Assembly: GCA_004213955.1 (NCBI GenBank)
Contig: SGZL01000006.1
Location: 1-48,357 of the forward strand
Length of the DNA stretch: 48,357 bases
DNA from: Gammaproteobacteria bacterium
Lineage (GTDB): Bacteria > Pseudomonadota > Gammaproteobacteria > Magnimaribacterales > AG-339-G14
Direction: 5' to 3'
Part shown: one piece after another, positions 39,035-48,357 of the stretch
Layout of the letters: each line of letters begins with the position of its first letter
Numbering within the stretch: position 1 is the stretch's first letter
Notes under the pieces: generated by a model
Told to the model about the DNA's origin: nothing
Databases searched by the model: none
The model's input: the letters and a program-made list of their open reading frames with translations, nothing else
Position numbers and translations under genes: made by a program

Positions 39035-39457
39035 TTATAAATTTGGTTTAAACACTACAAGTCCAACAATGATTATAACTAAAACTGTTGGAACCTCGTT
39101 TATGATTCTAAAAAATCTTTCAGAATAATCATTGAGATCGTCTTTGAATCTCTTTAAAGAATAAAACAAAAAGAAATGATAGAGAGTCATTAAAAATACA
39201 AAAAATATTTTAAGATTTAACCAAAACTGATTTCCCTGGACATAAACTAAGTAAATCCCACTTAGCCAAACGACAACCATAGCTGGATTAGCTATCACTC
39301 CATACAGTCTTGATTCCATCACTTTGAAAACGCTACTTAAAAGTTTTTCATCGTTATGCTTAGCGTGATAAACAAACAATCTGGGGAGATAAAATAGCGC
39401 AGCCATCCAAGCTATTACGGCGACAATATGAACTACTTTTAGAGTTAAATAAATCAA
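39035..39457 (-). CDS. hemJ: Protoporphyrinogen IX oxidase HemJ
   Basis: HemJ oxidises protoporphyrinogen IX to protoporphyrin IX in the inner membrane. The 140-residue protein has four membrane segments. The N-terminal KVVHIVAVIAWMAALFYLPRLFVYH carries the conserved histidine, MESRLYGVIANPAMVVVWLSGIYL follows, and the C-terminus RIINEVPTVLVIIIVGLVVFKP is diagnostic. It follows hemF by one base. HemJ replaces HemG/HemY in many Alphaproteobacteria and some Gammaproteobacteria. Confidence 0.94.
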   Translation of the reverse strand: MIYLTLKVVHIVAVIAWMAALFYLPRLFVYHAKHNDEKLLSSVFKVMESRLYGVIANPAMVVVWLSGIYLVYVQGNQFWLNLKIFFVFLMTLYHFFLFYSLKRFKDDLNDYSERFFRIINEVPTVLVIIIVGLVVFKPNL

Positions 39458-39458
39458 G

Positions 39459-40283
39459 TCAATCCCACTTTGCTTCTGGAGGCATTGACATCATGATGGC
39501 TTCAGTTGAACCTCCTGTTTTCAGACCAAACAATGTTCCCCTATCCCAAATCAGGTTAAATTCCACATATCTTCCTCTTTTAATAAGCTGTTTTTCTTTT
39601 TCATCTTCATTCCAAGGCAAATCTTTTTTATCTGACACAACTTTTGAGATTATTTTTAAGGTTTCTAAACCTACATCTTTTACAAAATTAAAATCTTGTT
39701 CCCAATCTCCTGTATTAAGATGGTCAAAAAAGATTCCACCTATCCCCCTCGGTTCTTTTCTATGTGGGAGGTAAAAATATTCGTCACAATTTTTTTTAAA
39801 TTCTTGGTAATAGTCCTCATTGTTCTTGTCACAAGCCTTTTTTAAGCTATCGTGAAAAAACAACTCATCAGGCTTATCATAAATAGTTGGAGTCATATCT
39901 GCGCCCCCTCCAAACCAAGAATCCTCAGTAACGAGAAATCTTGTGTTGAAATGAAATGCAGGTACTTTAGGGGAATTCATATGCGCTACTAGACTTATTC
40001 CTGAAGCCCAATACTTAGGAGATTTAGACGTGCCTTTTACTTGCCCTCTATAATCTTCAGAAAATTCTCCTGAGACGGTTGAAATATTCACTCCAACTTT
40101 TTCAAATACTTCTCCGCGCATGATACTCATTTCGCCTCCGCCTTTTCCTTTGTGATCCCAAAGCTTTCTCGAAAATTTTTTTGAATCTAAATCTTCAAAA
40201 GTTTTGCAAAAATCGTCGCGTAGAGAGCGAAACCAATCGCTTGCTTCTTTCTTTTTTATTTCTATATTCTTATCTATTGCCAT
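39459..40283 (-). CDS. hemF: Oxygen-dependent coproporphyrinogen III oxidase
   Basis: HemF uses O2 to decarboxylate coproporphyrinogen III to protoporphyrinogen IX. The 274-residue protein has MSIMRGEVFEKVGVNISTVSGEF, WFGGGADMTPTIYD, HRKEPRGIGGIFFDHL and RGRYVEFNLIWDRGTLFGLKTGGSTEAI. It ends MSMPPEAKWD, lacking the roughly 20-residue tail of E. coli HemF. From memory, this ending and the SIMRGxVFEKVGV/STVxGEF pattern match alphaproteobacterial HemF better than the enteric one. It overlaps hemH by ten bases. Oxygen-dependent HemF without HemN in the cluster suggests an aerobic lifestyle. Confidence 0.96.
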   Translation of the reverse strand: MAIDKNIEIKKKEASDWFRSLRDDFCKTFEDLDSKKFSRKLWDHKGKGGGEMSIMRGEVFEKVGVNISTVSGEFSEDYRGQVKGTSKSPKYWASGISLVAHMNSPKVPAFHFNTRFLVTEDSWFGGGADMTPTIYDKPDELFFHDSLKKACDKNNEDYYQEFKKNCDEYFYLPHRKEPRGIGGIFFDHLNTGDWEQDFNFVKDVGLETLKIISKVVSDKKDLPWNEDEKEKQLIKRGRYVEFNLIWDRGTLFGLKTGGSTEAIMMSMPPEAKWD

Positions 40284-41281
40284 ACAGAAACTTGCTTCTC
40301 TATGAAGTTTTTTAAAAAATCTACATGATCATCTGAGTCATTAAGACATTCAACGTAAGAAAATTTTTCTCCACCTGATTCTAAAAAATATTCTTTATTT
40401 TCTTCGTCAATTTCCTCTATGGTCTCTAGACAATCCATACTAAAGCCTGGTGCAATCACTAGAATATTTTTGCAATTTTCTTTAGGTAGGCTTTTCATGA
40501 CCTCGCTGGTATAAGGTTTCAACCATTCAGCGCTACCAAGTCTAGATTGAAATGCTGTAATGGCTTTTTCTTTCTGAATACCAAGTTGTTCACAAACAAG
40601 CCTTGAGGTTTTTTGACATAAACAATGGTAAGGATCGCCTTGATCAAAATATTTTTTTGGAATTCCGTGATATGTAAAAACTATTTTGTCTGGATGCTCT
40701 TGATCAAATTTCGGTTTTAATGACTGAGATATCGCTTTAATAAAATTTTTATCATCATGATAAGAATTTACAAAAACCAAACTTGGCACCCATCGCCAAC
40801 CACTAACTACTTCGGATACTTTGTCAAAAATACTACCCGTTGTTGTTGCAGAGTATTGAGGGAAAAGAGGAAGCACTATGATTTTTCTGCAATTATTTTG
40901 TTTCAGCTTTTCTAAGGCTGAATTAATACTTGGATTGCCATATCGCATTCCTAGAGCTAATGAGTAGTTTTCAGGCAAAGTTTGCTCTAATTTTTCTACT
41001 AGCTTTTGAGAATACACCATTAGAGGAGACCCCTCTTCTGTCCAAACAGATTTATATAATTTTGCTGAACTAAAAGGCCTAAAAGGCAAGATAAAGAGGT
41101 TTAAAATGAACCACCATAAAATTCTTGGAATTTCTATCACTCTTTTATCAGATAAAAATTCTCTTAAAAAAGTTCTAACGTGATTAACTGAATAACTGTC
41201 AGGAGTTCCTAAATTACAAATTAGCACTCCTATATTTTCTTCATTTTCATGACTAAAATCATTTTCTCCTATAAAACTCAT
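40274..41281 (-). CDS. hemH: Ferrochelatase
   Basis: HemH inserts ferrous iron into protoporphyrin IX to make protoheme, the last step of the pathway. The 335-residue protein has GVLICNLGTPDSYSVNHVRTFLREFLSDKRVIEIPR, LYKSVWTEEGSPLMVYSQKL, the catalytic histidine in FTYHGIPKKYFDQGDPYHCLCQKTSRLV and IAPGFSMDCLETIEEID with the metal-site glutamate. The SVWTEEGSPLMVYS element is of the gamma/betaproteobacterial kind. It shares one base with hemE and overlaps hemF by ten. Confidence 0.96.
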   Translation of the reverse strand: MSFIGENDFSHENEENIGVLICNLGTPDSYSVNHVRTFLREFLSDKRVIEIPRILWWFILNLFILPFRPFSSAKLYKSVWTEEGSPLMVYSQKLVEKLEQTLPENYSLALGMRYGNPSINSALEKLKQNNCRKIIVLPLFPQYSATTTGSIFDKVSEVVSGWRWVPSLVFVNSYHDDKNFIKAISQSLKPKFDQEHPDKIVFTYHGIPKKYFDQGDPYHCLCQKTSRLVCEQLGIQKEKAITAFQSRLGSAEWLKPYTSEVMKSLPKENCKNILVIAPGFSMDCLETIEEIDEENKEYFLESGGEKFSYVECLNDSDDHVDFLKNFIEKQVSVWQ

Positions 41282-42300
41282 TAAAAAGCCTCTCTAATCA
41301 TTTTGACAAAAGTTTTAACATTCTCTTCTGGAGTTTCTTTCAATATTCCATGACCTAAGCCACAAATCCAACCAGCTCTTTGTTGATCAGTAAAATTTGA
41401 TAATCCATTAATATACTTTTCTAACTCTATTTTCATAGAATCATTGGGCAATAACATTTTTTTTTCGTCAAAATTACCTTGGATAAAATAATCTCTAGAT
41501 TGAGTGAAATATTTTGTAAGAGGTTCTTTTGAATCAATTCCAACTCCGGCTAAGCAAGCCCCTTTTGATCCATTCAGGGAAATTATTGCATCGTAATCAA
41601 TATAGTCTTTTGCGTAATAACCTATTTTCTTACTAAATTTTGTAAAAATCTGATCAAACATCTTTTCAATATATTTTGTAAAATCATCTGTACCTAATAA
41701 ATGAGCTGAAGAATCAAAAATCATAATTAATTCGGCCCCAGCATTCAATTGCATTTCGATATTCTCTGAAATGGTAGGAATTAAAACATCATTTAAAACT
41801 CCCCATTGAAAATCACTAATTTTTAAATTTCCGCTAATTTTATTTAAGCCCATCGCGTAGGCTAATAAGGTACAAGGACCTCCAACAAATCCAATCAATG
41901 ACTTATCTTCAGGCAATACTTCAAGAGTCCTTTGTAAAGCCTCTCCTTGAAATGATAACGAATTGATATCAAATTTATTTTTAAATACTTTTTTATAACT
42001 TTCTTCTGTTAAGCAATTCCCAAATTTAGGGCCAGGAGAATACGTTAATTCCATTCCCAAACTTTCCAAGGGAAATAAAATATCACTAAAAAGAATTGCT
42101 ACATCAAAATCAAATGATTCAATTGGGCCTAAAGCAGTTTCCGCTGCTAAAGAAGGAGTTTTGCAAAGCTCTACAAATGAATTTTTAGTTTTTAAATTTT
42201 GATAATGACTATGATATCGCCCTGCTTGTCTCATAAACCAAATTGGCGGCGTTGGCTGAGGAATATTTTCGAGTGCATTGAAGAACTTTTTATTAGACAT
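41281..42300 (-). CDS. hemE: Uroporphyrinogen decarboxylase
   Basis: HemE removes four acetate carboxyls from uroporphyrinogen III. The 339-residue protein opens with PPIWFMRQAGRYHSHYQNLK (substrate-binding MRQAGRY) and has FSDILFPLESLGMEL, VGGPCTLLAYAMG and a C-terminal GWICGLGHGILKETPEENVKTFV, all standard. It starts three bases after hemB on the transcript and shares one base with hemH. Confidence 0.96.
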   Translation of the reverse strand: MSNKKFFNALENIPQPTPPIWFMRQAGRYHSHYQNLKTKNSFVELCKTPSLAAETALGPIESFDFDVAILFSDILFPLESLGMELTYSPGPKFGNCLTEESYKKVFKNKFDINSLSFQGEALQRTLEVLPEDKSLIGFVGGPCTLLAYAMGLNKISGNLKISDFQWGVLNDVLIPTISENIEMQLNAGAELIMIFDSSAHLLGTDDFTKYIEKMFDQIFTKFSKKIGYYAKDYIDYDAIISLNGSKGACLAGVGIDSKEPLTKYFTQSRDYFIQGNFDEKKMLLPNDSMKIELEKYINGLSNFTDQQRAGWICGLGHGILKETPEENVKTFVKMIREAF

Positions 42301-42303
42301 CTT

Positions 42304-43299
42304 TTATAAATCTTTAGCTATCTCATAAGCAGAGTAGGTCAAAATACAATCAGCTCCAGCTCTTTTAAATGAAATTAAAGATTCCTTAATTACATCTTCT
42401 GAAAGCCAACCATTTGCGATCGCTCCTTTAAGCATAGAGTATTCTCCACTGACTTGATAAACAAAAGTTGGAATCTTAAAAGTTTCTTTTACTGAAGATA
42501 CTATATCTAAGTATGGCATCCCTGGTTTAACCATAACAATATCTGCGCCTTCATTAATGTCCATTGCTACTTCATGTAAAGCTTCGAGTTTATTTGATGG
42601 AGACATCTGATATGTGTCTTTAGTTTTGTTACCAAAAAATTTTGCAGACTCAACTGCATCTTTGAAAGGTCCATAAAATTTTGAACTATATTTTGCTGCA
42701 TAAGACAAAATAACAGTATCCTTAAAATTTTCACTCTCCAAGGTATCTCTTATCGCTTTGATCCTTCCATCCATCATGTCTGAAGGTGCAACTACGTCGG
42801 CTCCAGCTTTAGCAAGGAACAACGCTTGTTTTTTTAAAGATTCAAGACTTGAATCATTATCTACGTCTCCAGAATCATTTAGAACTCCATCGTGTCCATG
42901 ATCGGTATATGGATCCAGTGCAACATCGGCTATGGTTATTAATTCAGGGAAGAGATCTTTAATTTTTGAAATTGAATTATTAAGGAAATTATCTTGTTTT
43001 AATGCCTCCGAACCTAATGGATCTTTTTTCTTTTCATCAATTACTGGAAATACAGCAATTGCTTTGATACCAACATCAACAATTTTTTGTAATTCTAATT
43101 TTAAAACGTCTTCTCCAATTCTATTAACATCAGGCATAGAAGAAATTGGTTCATAGCCAGACAAATTCTCTTTCACAAATATTGGTTGAATAAGATCATC
43201 CACAGTTATATTTGATTCAGCTAAAATCGATCTCAAGCCACTCTTCAAGCGGTTTCTTCTTAATCTAGTTGAGGGAAATTTTCTTAATAAGTCTTTCAT
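42304..43299 (-). CDS. hemB: Porphobilinogen synthase (delta-aminolevulinate dehydratase)
   Basis: HemB condenses two ALA molecules to porphobilinogen. The 331-residue protein has the catalytic lysines in SYAAKYSSKFYG and VMVKPGMPYLDIV, with SPSDMMDG-like APSDMMDGRI. The metal site reads DVALDPYTDHGHDGVL: the zinc-binding cysteines of E. coli HemB are replaced by Asp and Thr, so this is the magnesium-type enzyme, as in Pseudomonas and Alphaproteobacteria. It follows hemC by 21 bases. Confidence 0.96.
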   Translation of the reverse strand: MKDLLRKFPSTRLRRNRLKSGLRSILAESNITVDDLIQPIFVKENLSGYEPISSMPDVNRIGEDVLKLELQKIVDVGIKAIAVFPVIDEKKKDPLGSEALKQDNFLNNSISKIKDLFPELITIADVALDPYTDHGHDGVLNDSGDVDNDSSLESLKKQALFLAKAGADVVAPSDMMDGRIKAIRDTLESENFKDTVILSYAAKYSSKFYGPFKDAVESAKFFGNKTKDTYQMSPSNKLEALHEVAMDINEGADIVMVKPGMPYLDIVSSVKETFKIPTFVYQVSGEYSMLKGAIANGWLSEDVIKESLISFKRAGADCILTYSAYEIAKDL

Positions 43300-43320: not shown

Positions 43321-44814
43321 TTACTTTGCTCGTATAATTTTATCTAGCCAATCTTGATAATTCTGATAAGGATAAACTTTTCCAGGGATCAATTGATTTA
43401 TTTCATCGAAAGTTTTGCCCATTCCGCAAGCATGATTAGCGTTTTCGATAGATGGAAATTTATTAAAAACAAATTTAAAGGAGCTAGCGCTCATCCAAAA
43501 ATAATGAGAATTTTTTTCTATACCTTTTGGTAATTTTTTAGGAACAAGTTGATATGTTGATAACAACTCTAATTTATCTTCCTTTGCATCTAAATGAGAT
43601 AATTTGAACCACTTTACTTTATCGAATAATCCAACTGGTGGATTGTCATTCTCTCCCATACTATCAGAAGTACCATTTACCCAAATTCCTTGAGATGCTA
43701 ATTTTTTCCAAGTTTCAACTCCACTTGTCCAAACTATATTTGTTTCCGAAATTGTTTTGATATTCTCCAGAACGTTCCCTCTACTGACAAAAACACCTGA
43801 ATCTTTAATGTTTGAAACATCCTCTTCTACGCCAGTTAGTGGCACCCTGTCAAAAATTTGAGAAGAAGATGCATTAGAAGGAAAAAAACTTTCAATGCTG
43901 TTTAAATCATTTTTAAAGGTCGGGACAGGAATAAATGACGATTCAGAAATTTTATCACCGCCTTCGGTCTCGCCTTTGAGATTTAAAATTTCTCCTTTTT
44001 TTGTATTTAATATTGTTACGCCAATTTTTTGATGACATCCGCCCCCATACTTTTTTAATATCTCTCTTTCTTTAGTGACAAGGTTAAATGTTGCTTCATC
44101 TCCAATTTTTTTTATAAGATCTTTGAGTTCAAGATTATGTGATGCGATCTCAATTGCAAGAGCTCCTTGCGCAGGAGCAGCTGGATTTTCAGACAAAGGC
44201 AGAATCATCCACTTTGATTCTTTTAAAAAATTCAAAAGATGCAATTCTTCTTCTATAAATTGAGGTGAAGATAAAAGTCTTTTCATCGCTGCAAAAGCTA
44301 TCACCAGTCCATCTTCATTGGAGTTTAAAAGTTTAGAAATTCTAGTTTGAATATTTCCCCTTACGTCTATGAAATTAATTTTTTTTGGCTTCCAACTTAA
44401 GGCCTCTGGAAGAAATCTAGCTAAATTCTCTTTTCTTCTCGGAGAGGATGTAAAGATGTTAATTATTTCTTTGTCTATAGAATCTTGTTTTAAAATTAAA
44501 AAATCCCTAGGGTCTTCTCTTTTCAAAGTAGTTACTATTTCTGTTCCCACTTGTAATTCGACAGGTAAATCTTTCCAAGAATGGACAGCTAAATCTGCTT
44601 TATTATTAAGAAGCTCTTCTCTTATATCGTTAGTAAAAACTCCAGGATCAGGCATCTGATGTAATGGAGTAGATAAATCTATATCGCCTGATGTTTCCTT
44701 GGTTAAAAACTCTATGTTGATATTAGAAAATTCTTCTTTAATCTTGTCAGCAACAATATTTGCCTGAATTTTTGCAAGTAAACTTTTCCTAGAAATTATT
44801 CTTATAGTTTTCAA
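43321..44814 (-). CDS. hemC: Hydroxymethylbilane synthase with C-terminal HemD-like domain
   Basis: HemC polymerises four porphobilinogens into hydroxymethylbilane. Residues 1 to about 310 are HemC: ISRKSLLAKIQANIV, DLAVHSWKDLPVEL with the catalytic aspartate, SSPRRKENLARFLP, PAAPAQGALAIEI, and the dipyrromethane-cofactor Cys260 in YGGGCHQKIG. The protein continues to 497 residues. The tail has VFVSRGN, IVWTSGVETWKKLASQGIWV and YFWMSASSFKFVFNKFP...ACGMGKTFDEINQL, which resembles the C-terminal half of uroporphyrinogen-III synthase (HemD) but is divergent. The start codon is TTG, with an in-frame TAA four codons upstream and no clear ribosome site. It heads the minus-strand heme operon, divergent from hemA. 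Confidence 0.93.
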   Translation of the reverse strand: MKTIRIISRKSLLAKIQANIVADKIKEEFSNINIEFLTKETSGDIDLSTPLHQMPDPGVFTNDIREELLNNKADLAVHSWKDLPVELQVGTEIVTTLKREDPRDFLILKQDSIDKEIINIFTSSPRRKENLARFLPEALSWKPKKINFIDVRGNIQTRISKLLNSNEDGLVIAFAAMKRLLSSPQFIEEELHLLNFLKESKWMILPLSENPAAPAQGALAIEIASHNLELKDLIKKIGDEATFNLVTKEREILKKYGGGCHQKIGVTILNTKKGEILNLKGETEGGDKISESSFIPVPTFKNDLNSIESFFPSNASSSQIFDRVPLTGVEEDVSNIKDSGVFVSRGNVLENIKTISETNIVWTSGVETWKKLASQGIWVNGTSDSMGENDNPPVGLFDKVKWFKLSHLDAKEDKLELLSTYQLVPKKLPKGIEKNSHYFWMSASSFKFVFNKFPSIENANHACGMGKTFDEINQLIPGKVYPYQNYQDWLDKIIRAK

Positions 44815-44864
44815 TATAACTTTTTAATATATAAAGAATGTAATTATAAAATTTATATCTATTA

Positions 44865-44912: not shown

Positions 44913-46166
44913 ATGAATTATAAAAAATACTTTGCAGACGAACTAACGTCGCTCAAATCTCAAGGTCTTTACAGAAAATTCAGACAAATCAACCGAAACC
45001 AAGTTAATTTCCCAAAAGCGACTGAACGTTTTGAAGGAAAAGAAAGAGCAGTCGAAGTTTGGTGCAGCAATGATTATTTAAATTTGAGTCAACACCCTGT
45101 TGTGATTCTTGAATCAATAAAAGTAATTAAAGAATTAGGCACGGGTTCTGGGGGGACAAGGAATATATCTGGAACTTCTTCTTACCATGCTGATTTAGAG
45201 CAAAATTTAGCTGAATTACATAATAAGGAAGCCAGTCTTCTCTTTCCTTCAGCTTATACGGCTAATCAATCTACTTTATGGACTTTATGTAAGAAGCTTC
45301 AAGGTTGCGAGGTCTATTCAGACGAACTAAATCACGCTTCAATGATTCAAGGAATTAAAAATGCTAACGTTACTACTCATGTTTTTAAGCATAATGACGT
45401 CGAACATTTGGAGGAACTCTTAAAAACTTCAAATGCAAATACTCCAAAATTAATTGTTTTCGAATCACTTTACTCGATGGAAGGTTTGCGCTCTCCAATT
45501 AAGCAAATTGTAAATTTAGCAAAAAAATATAACGCTTTAACTTATTTAGATGAGGTACATTCAGTTGGTTTATATGGTCCCGAAGGCAGAGGTATAGCTG
45601 CTGAATTAGAAGTATCTAATGATATAGATATTATCAATGGAACTTTATCTAAAGCTTTCGGTCAGATGGGGGGCTACATATCTGCAAACAAAGATATAAT
45701 AGATTTTATAAGAAGTTTCGCTCCAGGTTTTATTTTTACTTCTTCTGCAAACCCAAGCATTGCTGCCGCGTCCATTCAAGCTATTAAAATAGCCAAAAGA
45801 GCAGACATTTTAAGAGAGAATATTAAAATAAATTCAAATTTAATTAGAGAAGGTTTAGCTGAATACAACATACCTTTCCTTAAAAATGACAGTCATATCG
45901 TCCCTATTCATCTATACGAACCTGAACTTTGTAAAAAAGCTGCAAACACTCTTATTGAAGAACATGGAATTTACATTCAACCGATATTTTATCCGACAGT
46001 TCCTAAGGGAGATGAAAGATTCAGAGTAACCATAACTCCTAAACATTCTGCCTCAGATGTTCAAAGCTTTGTTGAATCTCTTAATAAAGTATGGTCTGAA
46101 TTAGATCTCAAACGCTCTGATAAAACAGCTGAAAAAGAGCCTAAAAAGGTTTCTAAAATTTACTAA
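44913..46166 (+). CDS. hemA: 5-aminolevulinate synthase (Shemin pathway)
   Basis: ALAS condenses glycine and succinyl-CoA to 5-aminolevulinate with PLP. The 417-residue protein matches alphaproteobacterial ALAS throughout: GLYRKFRQINRNQVNFPKAT, VWCSNDYLNLSQHPVV, GTGSGGTRNISGTSSYHADLE, SDELNHASMIQGI, YLDEVHSVGLYG, PLP Lys247 in NGTLSKAFGQMGGY, and the ALAS-specific SHIVPIHLYEPELCKKA and HGIYIQPIFYPTVPKGDERFR. The last two separate it from BioF and Kbl. A lysine-rich tail (about 15 residues) follows the catalytic domain. It is divergent from hemC. ALAS is uncommon in Gammaproteobacteria; the name hemA is also used for the unrelated glutamyl-tRNA reductase. Confidence 0.95.
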   Translation: MNYKKYFADELTSLKSQGLYRKFRQINRNQVNFPKATERFEGKERAVEVWCSNDYLNLSQHPVVILESIKVIKELGTGSGGTRNISGTSSYHADLEQNLAELHNKEASLLFPSAYTANQSTLWTLCKKLQGCEVYSDELNHASMIQGIKNANVTTHVFKHNDVEHLEELLKTSNANTPKLIVFESLYSMEGLRSPIKQIVNLAKKYNALTYLDEVHSVGLYGPEGRGIAAELEVSNDIDIINGTLSKAFGQMGGYISANKDIIDFIRSFAPGFIFTSSANPSIAAASIQAIKIAKRADILRENIKINSNLIREGLAEYNIPFLKNDSHIVPIHLYEPELCKKAANTLIEEHGIYIQPIFYPTVPKGDERFRVTITPKHSASDVQSFVESLNKVWSELDLKRSDKTAEKEPKKVSKIY

Positions 46167-46293: not shown

Positions 46294-48357
46294 TCAGAAA
46301 GTCCTCCTAATTGAGAAATTAGCATTAACCTCTTCTCCAACTGACGCTTGATGCGTTGAGTGTGAGTGAGGGAAATACGTTTCATCTGTGAGGTTTTCTA
46401 TATTCATTTGTAACATTAAATCATCAGCAATTTGATAATACGCTGCTACATCAACTCTTGTGAAACTTGGCAAGTAAGGAGTTGCAGAAGTTCCCATTTG
46501 CTGATCGCCTTGAGAAGTTACGCCAAATCCAATACCGAATTTATCGTTAACCTGATAATTAGCGAACGCAGAAAATTGGTAATCTGGAATCTCTTTATTC
46601 TGAGCAACAGTATCTCCTTCAAAATCAGCGTAACTCATTGTCAGTTCTAGTTGATCTGAAATTCTTCCTACTAACTCAATTTCTATACCGTCTACGTTTT
46701 GATTTACAACTGCTTGTTGTTCAGCAACGCCACCAACTGTAACTGCCTGCATAGCTGTTCTTTCCGCATCAAAATATGCAGCAGTCAAAAATAGCTCTTC
46801 AGAAATAGCCCATTTCAATCCTATCTCAGTATTTTCTGTCTCACTGGCATCAAGAACTGCGCCTAAAGTAGAGTTGTTGGACATTGCCTTGTATTGCTCT
46901 CCGGCGACAGGTGCAAAGGTATTGCTGTAACTAGCATAAATTGAAACATTGTCCTGTGGTTTAAAAATAATACCAGCTCTAGGAGAAACTAAATCCTCTC
47001 CTTTAGTAACAGTAGCTTCAGAACCAGGTTTAAGATTAACTACTGTAATTTCGTAATCATCGTATCTTGCGCCAAGAAGAATCTTCAAGTTATCAGAAAC
47101 ATCTATTTGATCTTGAAGGAAGAAAGAAGTAACTTCAAATTCTGTAGTAGTACTATTGTTAAGACTAGAAGTGAAATCCAAGGTGACAGTTGAACCAGCT
47201 TCATCTCTATTAAAGATACCTGCTCTCATGTCAGCAATTGAAAAAGTTTCTCTGTCATTTTTACCTGCTTGTGAACTATCTGCTGCGAATATACCTGCAG
47301 CATCATTAGCTAAAGGTAAAGCTCCAGCATTAGTGAAATACGTGTTGTATCGAAAGTTTTTGTTATCAGTATCAACTACTTCAACACCAAATAAAATAGT
47401 GTGCGTAGCAGAAACTAATTCAAGTTCGTTTACAAAGTTAGCTGAAATAATTAAATTTTCTCTTGTCGTAGGATCTCGGTATCCATCCAAAGCTACTTCT
47501 TGAGCAGTTTCATCATAACCAGCGACATAAAGATTTTGATACATTTTTTCAAATTCATTATTTGTAACAGAAAAAATAGCTTTTGAAGTATCTGAGATGT
47601 CTCTAGTAATGGTAGCTCTTAATATGTCAGCAGTTAAAGTTTGAGTATTAAGTTCTGGATGTCCGAAAACGATATCGGCTAAAGCCTCTACTGGCTCTCC
47701 ATTAGAACCTGTAGGTATACCTCGGTCAATAAATCTTTGGTGATCAGCATATTCATAAGAAACATCCAATACGGTGTTATCACTCATTTTAACTTTTAAA
47801 GTCGGATTAAATCCTGCTCGATCTCCGTCGTAATAAGATCGGTGATTGTTAAGGTAATCACGATGCGCCATGATTCTTAAAGACCTTTCTTCATTAATTG
47901 AAATGTTGTAATCCGCAACGAAATCATAAGCACCGAAGGTGTTTGAACCGATTGAGAATGAACCAAAGGTTTCTCCTAAGACACCTTTTTTAGAAACTCT
48001 GTTAATTACTCCACCAGTTCCGCCCCTTCCAAATAATAAAGCATTAGGACCTCTTAAGATCTCTACTTGCTCTACGTTATAAAGAGAACGGTAATATTGA
48101 ACATCGTCTCTAACACCGTCTTGAAAAAAGTCAGCTGTTGATCTATTGCCTCGAAAAACAATTGCATCTCTATGGCCTTCTCCCTGAGAAGTACTTACAC
48201 CTGGAGTGTATCTAACTAGGTCTCCTAATTGTTGATATCCTTGTCTGGCAATTTCATCGTCAGTGATAATTGATACAGAAACAGGTACATTAATAATCGG
48301 CACTGGAGTTTTAAGTGCATTGACTTGGTCAGAATAAAGAACATTACCTCTTACAGT
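46294..48357 (-). CDS. TonB-dependent siderophore-type outer membrane receptor (N-terminus beyond window)
   Basis: The frame stays open to the window edge, giving 687 residues; a GTG at 48303 is internal, because the upstream TVRGNVLYSDQVNALKTP is typical plug-domain sequence. The plug has PIINVPVSVSIITDDEIARQ, LGDLVRYTPGV, IVFRGNRSTADFFQDGVRDD and VEQVEILRGPNALLFGRGGTGGVINRV, all hallmarks of the catecholate (Fiu-like) siderophore-receptor group. A 22-strand-type barrel follows and ends with NLTDETYFPH...SIRRTF, whose terminal Phe is the BAM recognition residue. The TonB box and signal peptide are outside the window. It converges on hemA across 127 bases. Confidence 0.93.
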   Translation of the reverse strand, partial: TVRGNVLYSDQVNALKTPVPIINVPVSVSIITDDEIARQGYQQLGDLVRYTPGVSTSQGEGHRDAIVFRGNRSTADFFQDGVRDDVQYYRSLYNVEQVEILRGPNALLFGRGGTGGVINRVSKKGVLGETFGSFSIGSNTFGAYDFVADYNISINEERSLRIMAHRDYLNNHRSYYDGDRAGFNPTLKVKMSDNTVLDVSYEYADHQRFIDRGIPTGSNGEPVEALADIVFGHPELNTQTLTADILRATITRDISDTSKAIFSVTNNEFEKMYQNLYVAGYDETAQEVALDGYRDPTTRENLIISANFVNELELVSATHTILFGVEVVDTDNKNFRYNTYFTNAGALPLANDAAGIFAADSSQAGKNDRETFSIADMRAGIFNRDEAGSTVTLDFTSSLNNSTTTEFEVTSFFLQDQIDVSDNLKILLGARYDDYEITVVNLKPGSEATVTKGEDLVSPRAGIIFKPQDNVSIYASYSNTFAPVAGEQYKAMSNNSTLGAVLDASETENTEIGLKWAISEELFLTAAYFDAERTAMQAVTVGGVAEQQAVVNQNVDGIEIELVGRISDQLELTMSYADFEGDTVAQNKEIPDYQFSAFANYQVNDKFGIGFGVTSQGDQQMGTSATPYLPSFTRVDVAAYYQIADDLMLQMNIENLTDETYFPHSHSTHQASVGEEVNANFSIRRTF

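Follow-up and report, generated by a model that had tools for sequence, protein, structure and literature searches.

How a bacterium with no recognizable hemD gene makes uroporphyrinogen III is the question raised by a heme biosynthesis cluster of a marine SAR86-order gammaproteobacterium. The stretch of DNA analyzed as a whole (the window) comprises 48,357 nucleotides, and at positions 43321-44814 of its minus strand lies a gene for a 497-residue protein in which a HemC (hydroxymethylbilane synthase) part is followed by a C-terminal tail. A preliminary description of this DNA had proposed that the tail supplies uroporphyrinogen-III synthase (UROS) activity. Our results support this reading through the predicted fold of the tail, the absence of a separate hemD and full-length homology to the HemC/D protein of Leptospira. 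We conclude, with a probability of about 0.94, that the product of the gene is a bifunctional HemC/D enzyme whose tail acts as the UROS, although for SAR86 the activity of the tail is inferred.

The fusion gene heads a tight operon, all on the minus strand. A 21-nt gap separates it from hemB, encoding porphobilinogen synthase (42304-43299; NF006762), which is followed by hemE, uroporphyrinogen decarboxylase (41281-42300), hemH, ferrochelatase (40274-41281; TIGR00109), hemF, oxygen-dependent coproporphyrinogen oxidase (39459-40283; NF003727), and hemJ, protoporphyrinogen oxidase (39035-39457; TIGR00701); the other gaps are at most 3 nt or are overlaps. A hemA-type 5-aminolevulinate synthase (ALAS) gene lies on the plus strand (44913-46166; TIGR01821, 547 bits), divergent from hemC/D. 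The cluster had been described as otherwise complete, and indeed all other genes from ALA to heme are present, leaving UROS as the sole missing step if the tail is discounted. HemF acts on the type III isomer, and UROS activity is therefore needed for this route. The gene order recurs in the other sampled loci of the same SAR86 family (f1). The HemE protein matched PF01208 above its cut-off, and because it scored 222.6 bits against the curated NCBIfam cut-off of 302.95 for TIGR01464, automatic naming may miss it too. Next to the ALA synthase gene, at 46294-48303, lies a gene for a TonB-dependent siderophore-type receptor, and a related receptor occupies the same place in most sampled f1 loci.

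We then considered the two parts of the protein separately. The HemC part, residues 1-298 (43921-44814), matched PF01379 over residues 4-230 (4e-50, 170.7 bits against a cut-off of 22.1) and passed the NCBIfam hemC model TIGR00212 (201.6 bits against 164, 1e-59). In an alignment to E. coli HemC, Lys81 and Asp82 (codons at 44569-44574), the latter the catalytic aspartate, pair with K83 and D84, and Cys260 (44035-44037), the dipyrromethane cofactor cysteine, pairs with C242. These three residues, together with the substrate-binding arginines R9, R126, R127, R152 and R158, are invariant among 24 relatives. An AlphaFold2 model of the full-length protein, built from an alignment of the window protein and 23 homologs, had a mean pLDDT of 90.6 and a pTM of 0.88, and solved HemC structures matched it over residues 1-298 with Z-scores of up to 33.5.

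The match to the HemC fold stops at residue 298, corresponding to residue 281 of 313 in E. coli HemC (1pda), and the tail thus appears to take the place of the final ~30 residues of HemC domain 3. PF03900, which represents this C-terminal domain 3, gave a weak match covering positions 3-37 of 74 (14.9 bits; cut-off 26). The window protein is thus like E. coli HemC in its catalytic and cofactor residues and in its fold over residues 1-298, but appears to differ in the end of domain 3. Of the earlier claim of a complete HemC with a Cys260 site, the cofactor cysteine stands, whereas the HemC part seems to be not quite complete.

The tail is difficult to recognize from its sequence. Residues 311-497 alone fit no Pfam or NCBIfam family, the window protein has no Pfam match to PF02602 (HEM4), a tail profile found no match among PDB sequences, and hhalign gave a probability of 0.5%, hence no link, against the HemD/HEM4 proteins of SAR86 families f3 and f4. 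Because these sequence-level searches all fail, the homology between the tail and UROS is argued here from predicted structure and from Leptospira. We modeled the tail (residues 296-497) by itself, since HemC matches filled the structure search made with the full-length model, and obtained a pLDDT of 86.3 and a pTM of 0.79. In Foldseek, ranks 1-10 were all solved UROS structures, from Shewanella, Thermus, human and Helicobacter (probability 1.00, E-values of 9e-6 to 2.5e-3), and rank 11 was a tryptophan synthase (probability 0.18, E-value 0.06). The Foldseek TM-scores, normalized by query length, were moderate at 0.37-0.54, and the two domains of UROS are known to be flexible relative to each other. 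With VIA-align, UROS structures again filled ranks 1-10 (Z = 8.4-12.8), led by P. aeruginosa HemD 4es6 (Z = 12.8, rmsd 3.8 over 186 residues), and the first unrelated row was a half-match to a dehydrogenase (Z = 6.1 over 90 residues).

The VIA-align matches to UROS extend over residues ~11-202 of the tail model, equivalent to residues ~306-497 of the protein. The prediction for the tail is thus a complete, though compact, two-domain UROS fold; it is encoded, together with the stop codon, at 43321-43899. The comparison with HemD suggested in the preliminary description thus came out in favor of UROS; the HemD-like layout that it had placed in the last part of the tail is confirmed in kind but not in extent, since the whole tail is covered. 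By structure comparison, the tail shares the two-domain fold of canonical UROS (PF02602; PDB 4es6, 3p9z, 1wcx, 1jr2). It differs in being shorter (~190 residues, against 213-260 in the solved chains), in being fused to HemC, and in having no detectable match to PF02602 or to the HemD of sister SAR86 families. An invariant tyrosine in the alignment of relatives, Tyr421 (codon at 43552-43554), may correspond to the active-site tyrosine conserved in UROS; our literature searches returned no papers on that residue.

Based on these features, the HemC part would convert four porphobilinogens into hydroxymethylbilane on the dipyrromethane cofactor held by Cys260, and the compact C-terminal UROS would close this bilane with inversion of ring D. 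The resulting uroporphyrinogen III would then feed the neighboring HemE and HemF. Both steps from porphobilinogen to uroporphyrinogen III thus most likely take place on one polypeptide, and the apparent hemD gap in the cluster is explained by the fusion of the HemD part to HemC. Hydroxymethylbilane is unstable, and it may be transferred directly between the two parts; with its ~190-residue UROS and shortened HemC, the fusion would lend itself well to studying such passage between active sites.

A precedent for this arrangement exists in Leptospira. In the plasmid collection, the top match was L. interrogans WP_000086821.1; it is annotated as a "bifunctional porphobilinogen deaminase/uroporphyrinogen synthase" and shares 37.7% identity with the window protein over 98% of the query. 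Passages in PMC8698207, PMC11426443 and PMC3945110, citing Guegan et al. 2003, describe Leptospira HemC and HemD as one bifunctional enzyme with dual activity, and a passage in PMC7567364 names the gene hemC/D. The Leptospira protein (LIC20009/LB011) and the window protein have the same domain order, homology over their full length, the same invariant tail motifs in a joint alignment, hemB as the next gene downstream and no Pfam HEM4 match. They differ in that the Leptospira protein has 542 residues with insertions, compared with 497 in SAR86, and in that its operon uses the C5 route (hemA, encoding glutamyl-tRNA reductase, and hemL), whereas SAR86 has ALA synthase and another operon order. 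The window protein therefore belongs to a known kind, the Leptospira-type HemC/D fusion, and the dual activity reported for the L. interrogans homolog is a precedent for it. What the present case adds is that the fusion is widespread in SAR86, goes unseen by HEM4-based annotation and accompanies an ALA-synthase cluster. Our searches found no literature linking SAR86 to heme biosynthesis or UROS.

To see how widely the arrangement occurs, we collected relatives, most of which came from SAR86 cluster bacteria. The same HemC-tail arrangement was found in 54 of 151 SAR86-order genomes, all belonging to families f1 and f2, in five alphaproteobacterial records (one of them truncated), in Leptospira and in Bdellovibrionales. 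A phylogenetic tree separated all fused proteins, as a single clade, from unfused SAR86 HemC, with a support of 100/100. The fusion known from Leptospira thus also occurs in SAR86, in Bdellovibrionales and in certain marine Alphaproteobacteria. A search of 298 further genomes from across the phylum did not find the tail, and its distribution is therefore rare and patchy. An erroneous joining of two genes during assembly is refuted by the recurrence of the arrangement in these independent assemblies, and we give this explanation practically no weight.

The distribution of separate hemD genes complements that of the tail. The genome containing the window (1.06 Mb in 28 contigs, 93% complete) had no HEM4 match even at an E-value of 10, at which all 14 control genomes matched. 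Across the 151 SAR86-order genomes, we found 71 HEM4 genes above the cut-off, all in f3 and f4, and no genome appeared on both this list and the list of tail-bearing genomes. The f3 and f4 HemC proteins inspected had the usual length of ~300 residues. The earlier statement that the cluster holds no separate hemD thus extends to the window's genome and to the tail-bearing families of the order. Weak HEM4 matches in f1 and f2 (10-20 bits, none reaching the cut-off), mostly inside open reading frames of 590-700 residues, were set aside as chance.

Eight of nine genomes with more distant fusion loci had only the fused HemC and no HEM4 gene above the cut-off. The gammaproteobacterial metagenome-assembled genome G449, the source of locus L048, carried both a fused hemC/D on contig 21 and, on contig 13, a standard hemC next to hemD; the bin may be mixed, or the genome may be in transition. 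In addition, a single-contig SAR86 f4 genome (G030, 95% complete) encoded HemE and glutamyl-tRNA reductase but matched neither HemC nor HEM4, which leaves an odd gap in mid-pathway.

The L. interrogans HemC/D and other fusions likewise lack a Pfam HEM4 match, and because the Leptospira protein shares this property, the HEM4 model seems to miss this entire UROS branch. Automated reconstruction relying on that standard model can consequently call such genomes heme auxotrophs in error, and recognizing the fusion removes an apparent heme-pathway gap in abundant ocean bacteria.

The lack of a HEM4 match could also be taken to mean that the tail retains a UROS fold with no catalytic function or with a structural role only, and that another, unrecognized protein makes uroporphyrinogen III. 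A fold by itself is no proof of activity, and divergence is quicker in the tail than in HemC (identity to the relative L053, for example, is 31% against 46%). However, the tail is kept at full length with its invariant residues from SAR86 to Bdellovibrionales, and no listed tail-bearing SAR86 genome has a HEM4 gene above the cut-off. The operon itself contains HemF, which uses the type III isomer. Moreover, passages in PMC8698207 and PMC3945110 report dual function for the Leptospira homolog. We therefore regard a dead tail as improbable.

A further alternative is that tetrapyrroles are scavenged or made in some other way, so that the cell can do without UROS and the tail is an appendage of some unrelated kind. 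The TonB-dependent receptor adjoining the cluster would fit such a lifestyle, and heme dependence may occur within the order: in four genomes of the f2 genus g12 (G040, G058, G067 and G119) we found neither HemC nor HemE, and likewise no fusion tail and no HEM4 above the cut-off, and this genus may depend on external heme. However, g12 has lost the fusion along with the pathway, while the window cluster spans the steps from ALA synthase to ferrochelatase and is kept in the sampled f1 loci. The tail also matches UROS structures specifically. Scavenging with a dispensable UROS is thus very improbable, and a working HemC/D fusion remains our reading of the locus.

Within SAR86, the fusion is tied to one of two ways of making heme. 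Among the 41 nearest genomes, 25 had the fusion and the same 25 had an ALA synthase above the cut-off; glutamyl-tRNA reductase was confined to f3 and f4, where 9 of 10 genomes had it. Families f1 and f2 thus have ALA synthase and no glutamyl-tRNA reductase, whereas f3 and f4 have glutamyl-tRNA reductase and no ALA synthase above the cut-off. Given this co-occurrence and restriction, SAR86 heme biosynthesis is split by family into two alternative routes, one with ALA synthase and fused hemC/D and the other with glutamyl-tRNA reductase and separate hemC and hemD.

In four loci from marine Alphaproteobacteria (L049-L052), hemC/D, hemE, hemH, hemF and hemJ stand in the same order as in SAR86, with a divergent upstream ALA synthase in two and hemB in one. 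This conserved order suggests that the cluster has moved between SAR86 and marine Alphaproteobacteria. A broader scenario, to which we give even odds, is that the fusion marks a self-contained cluster of ALAS, hemC/D, hemB, hemE, hemH, hemF and hemJ that was exchanged with marine Alphaproteobacteria and replaced the ancestral SAR86 C5 route and separate hemC and hemD in two families, its HEM4-negative UROS leading annotation to call them hemD-deficient.

Finally, we examined the start codon of the fusion gene. The 497-residue reading frame with a TTG start had been noted from the DNA itself, and it is borne out, on the minus strand, by the ORF call, by the upstream frame and by the start codons of relatives. 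Upstream of the TTG, the frame stays open for only three codons, and the next ATG is that of Met54. The same site holds TTG in other species of genera g1, g3 and g4 and of the f2 genus g8, and ATG in genus g2, while two genomes (G005 and G025) have an ATG start one to three codons further in. Many SAR86 species share this TTG at the equivalent position, so it counts as an established start codon, genuine and long-lived. The proposal that it limits expression of the gene found no support and was dropped in view of this conservation. A GTTATA stretch at 44815-44832 abuts the start codon and is kept across most SAR86 f1 genera.
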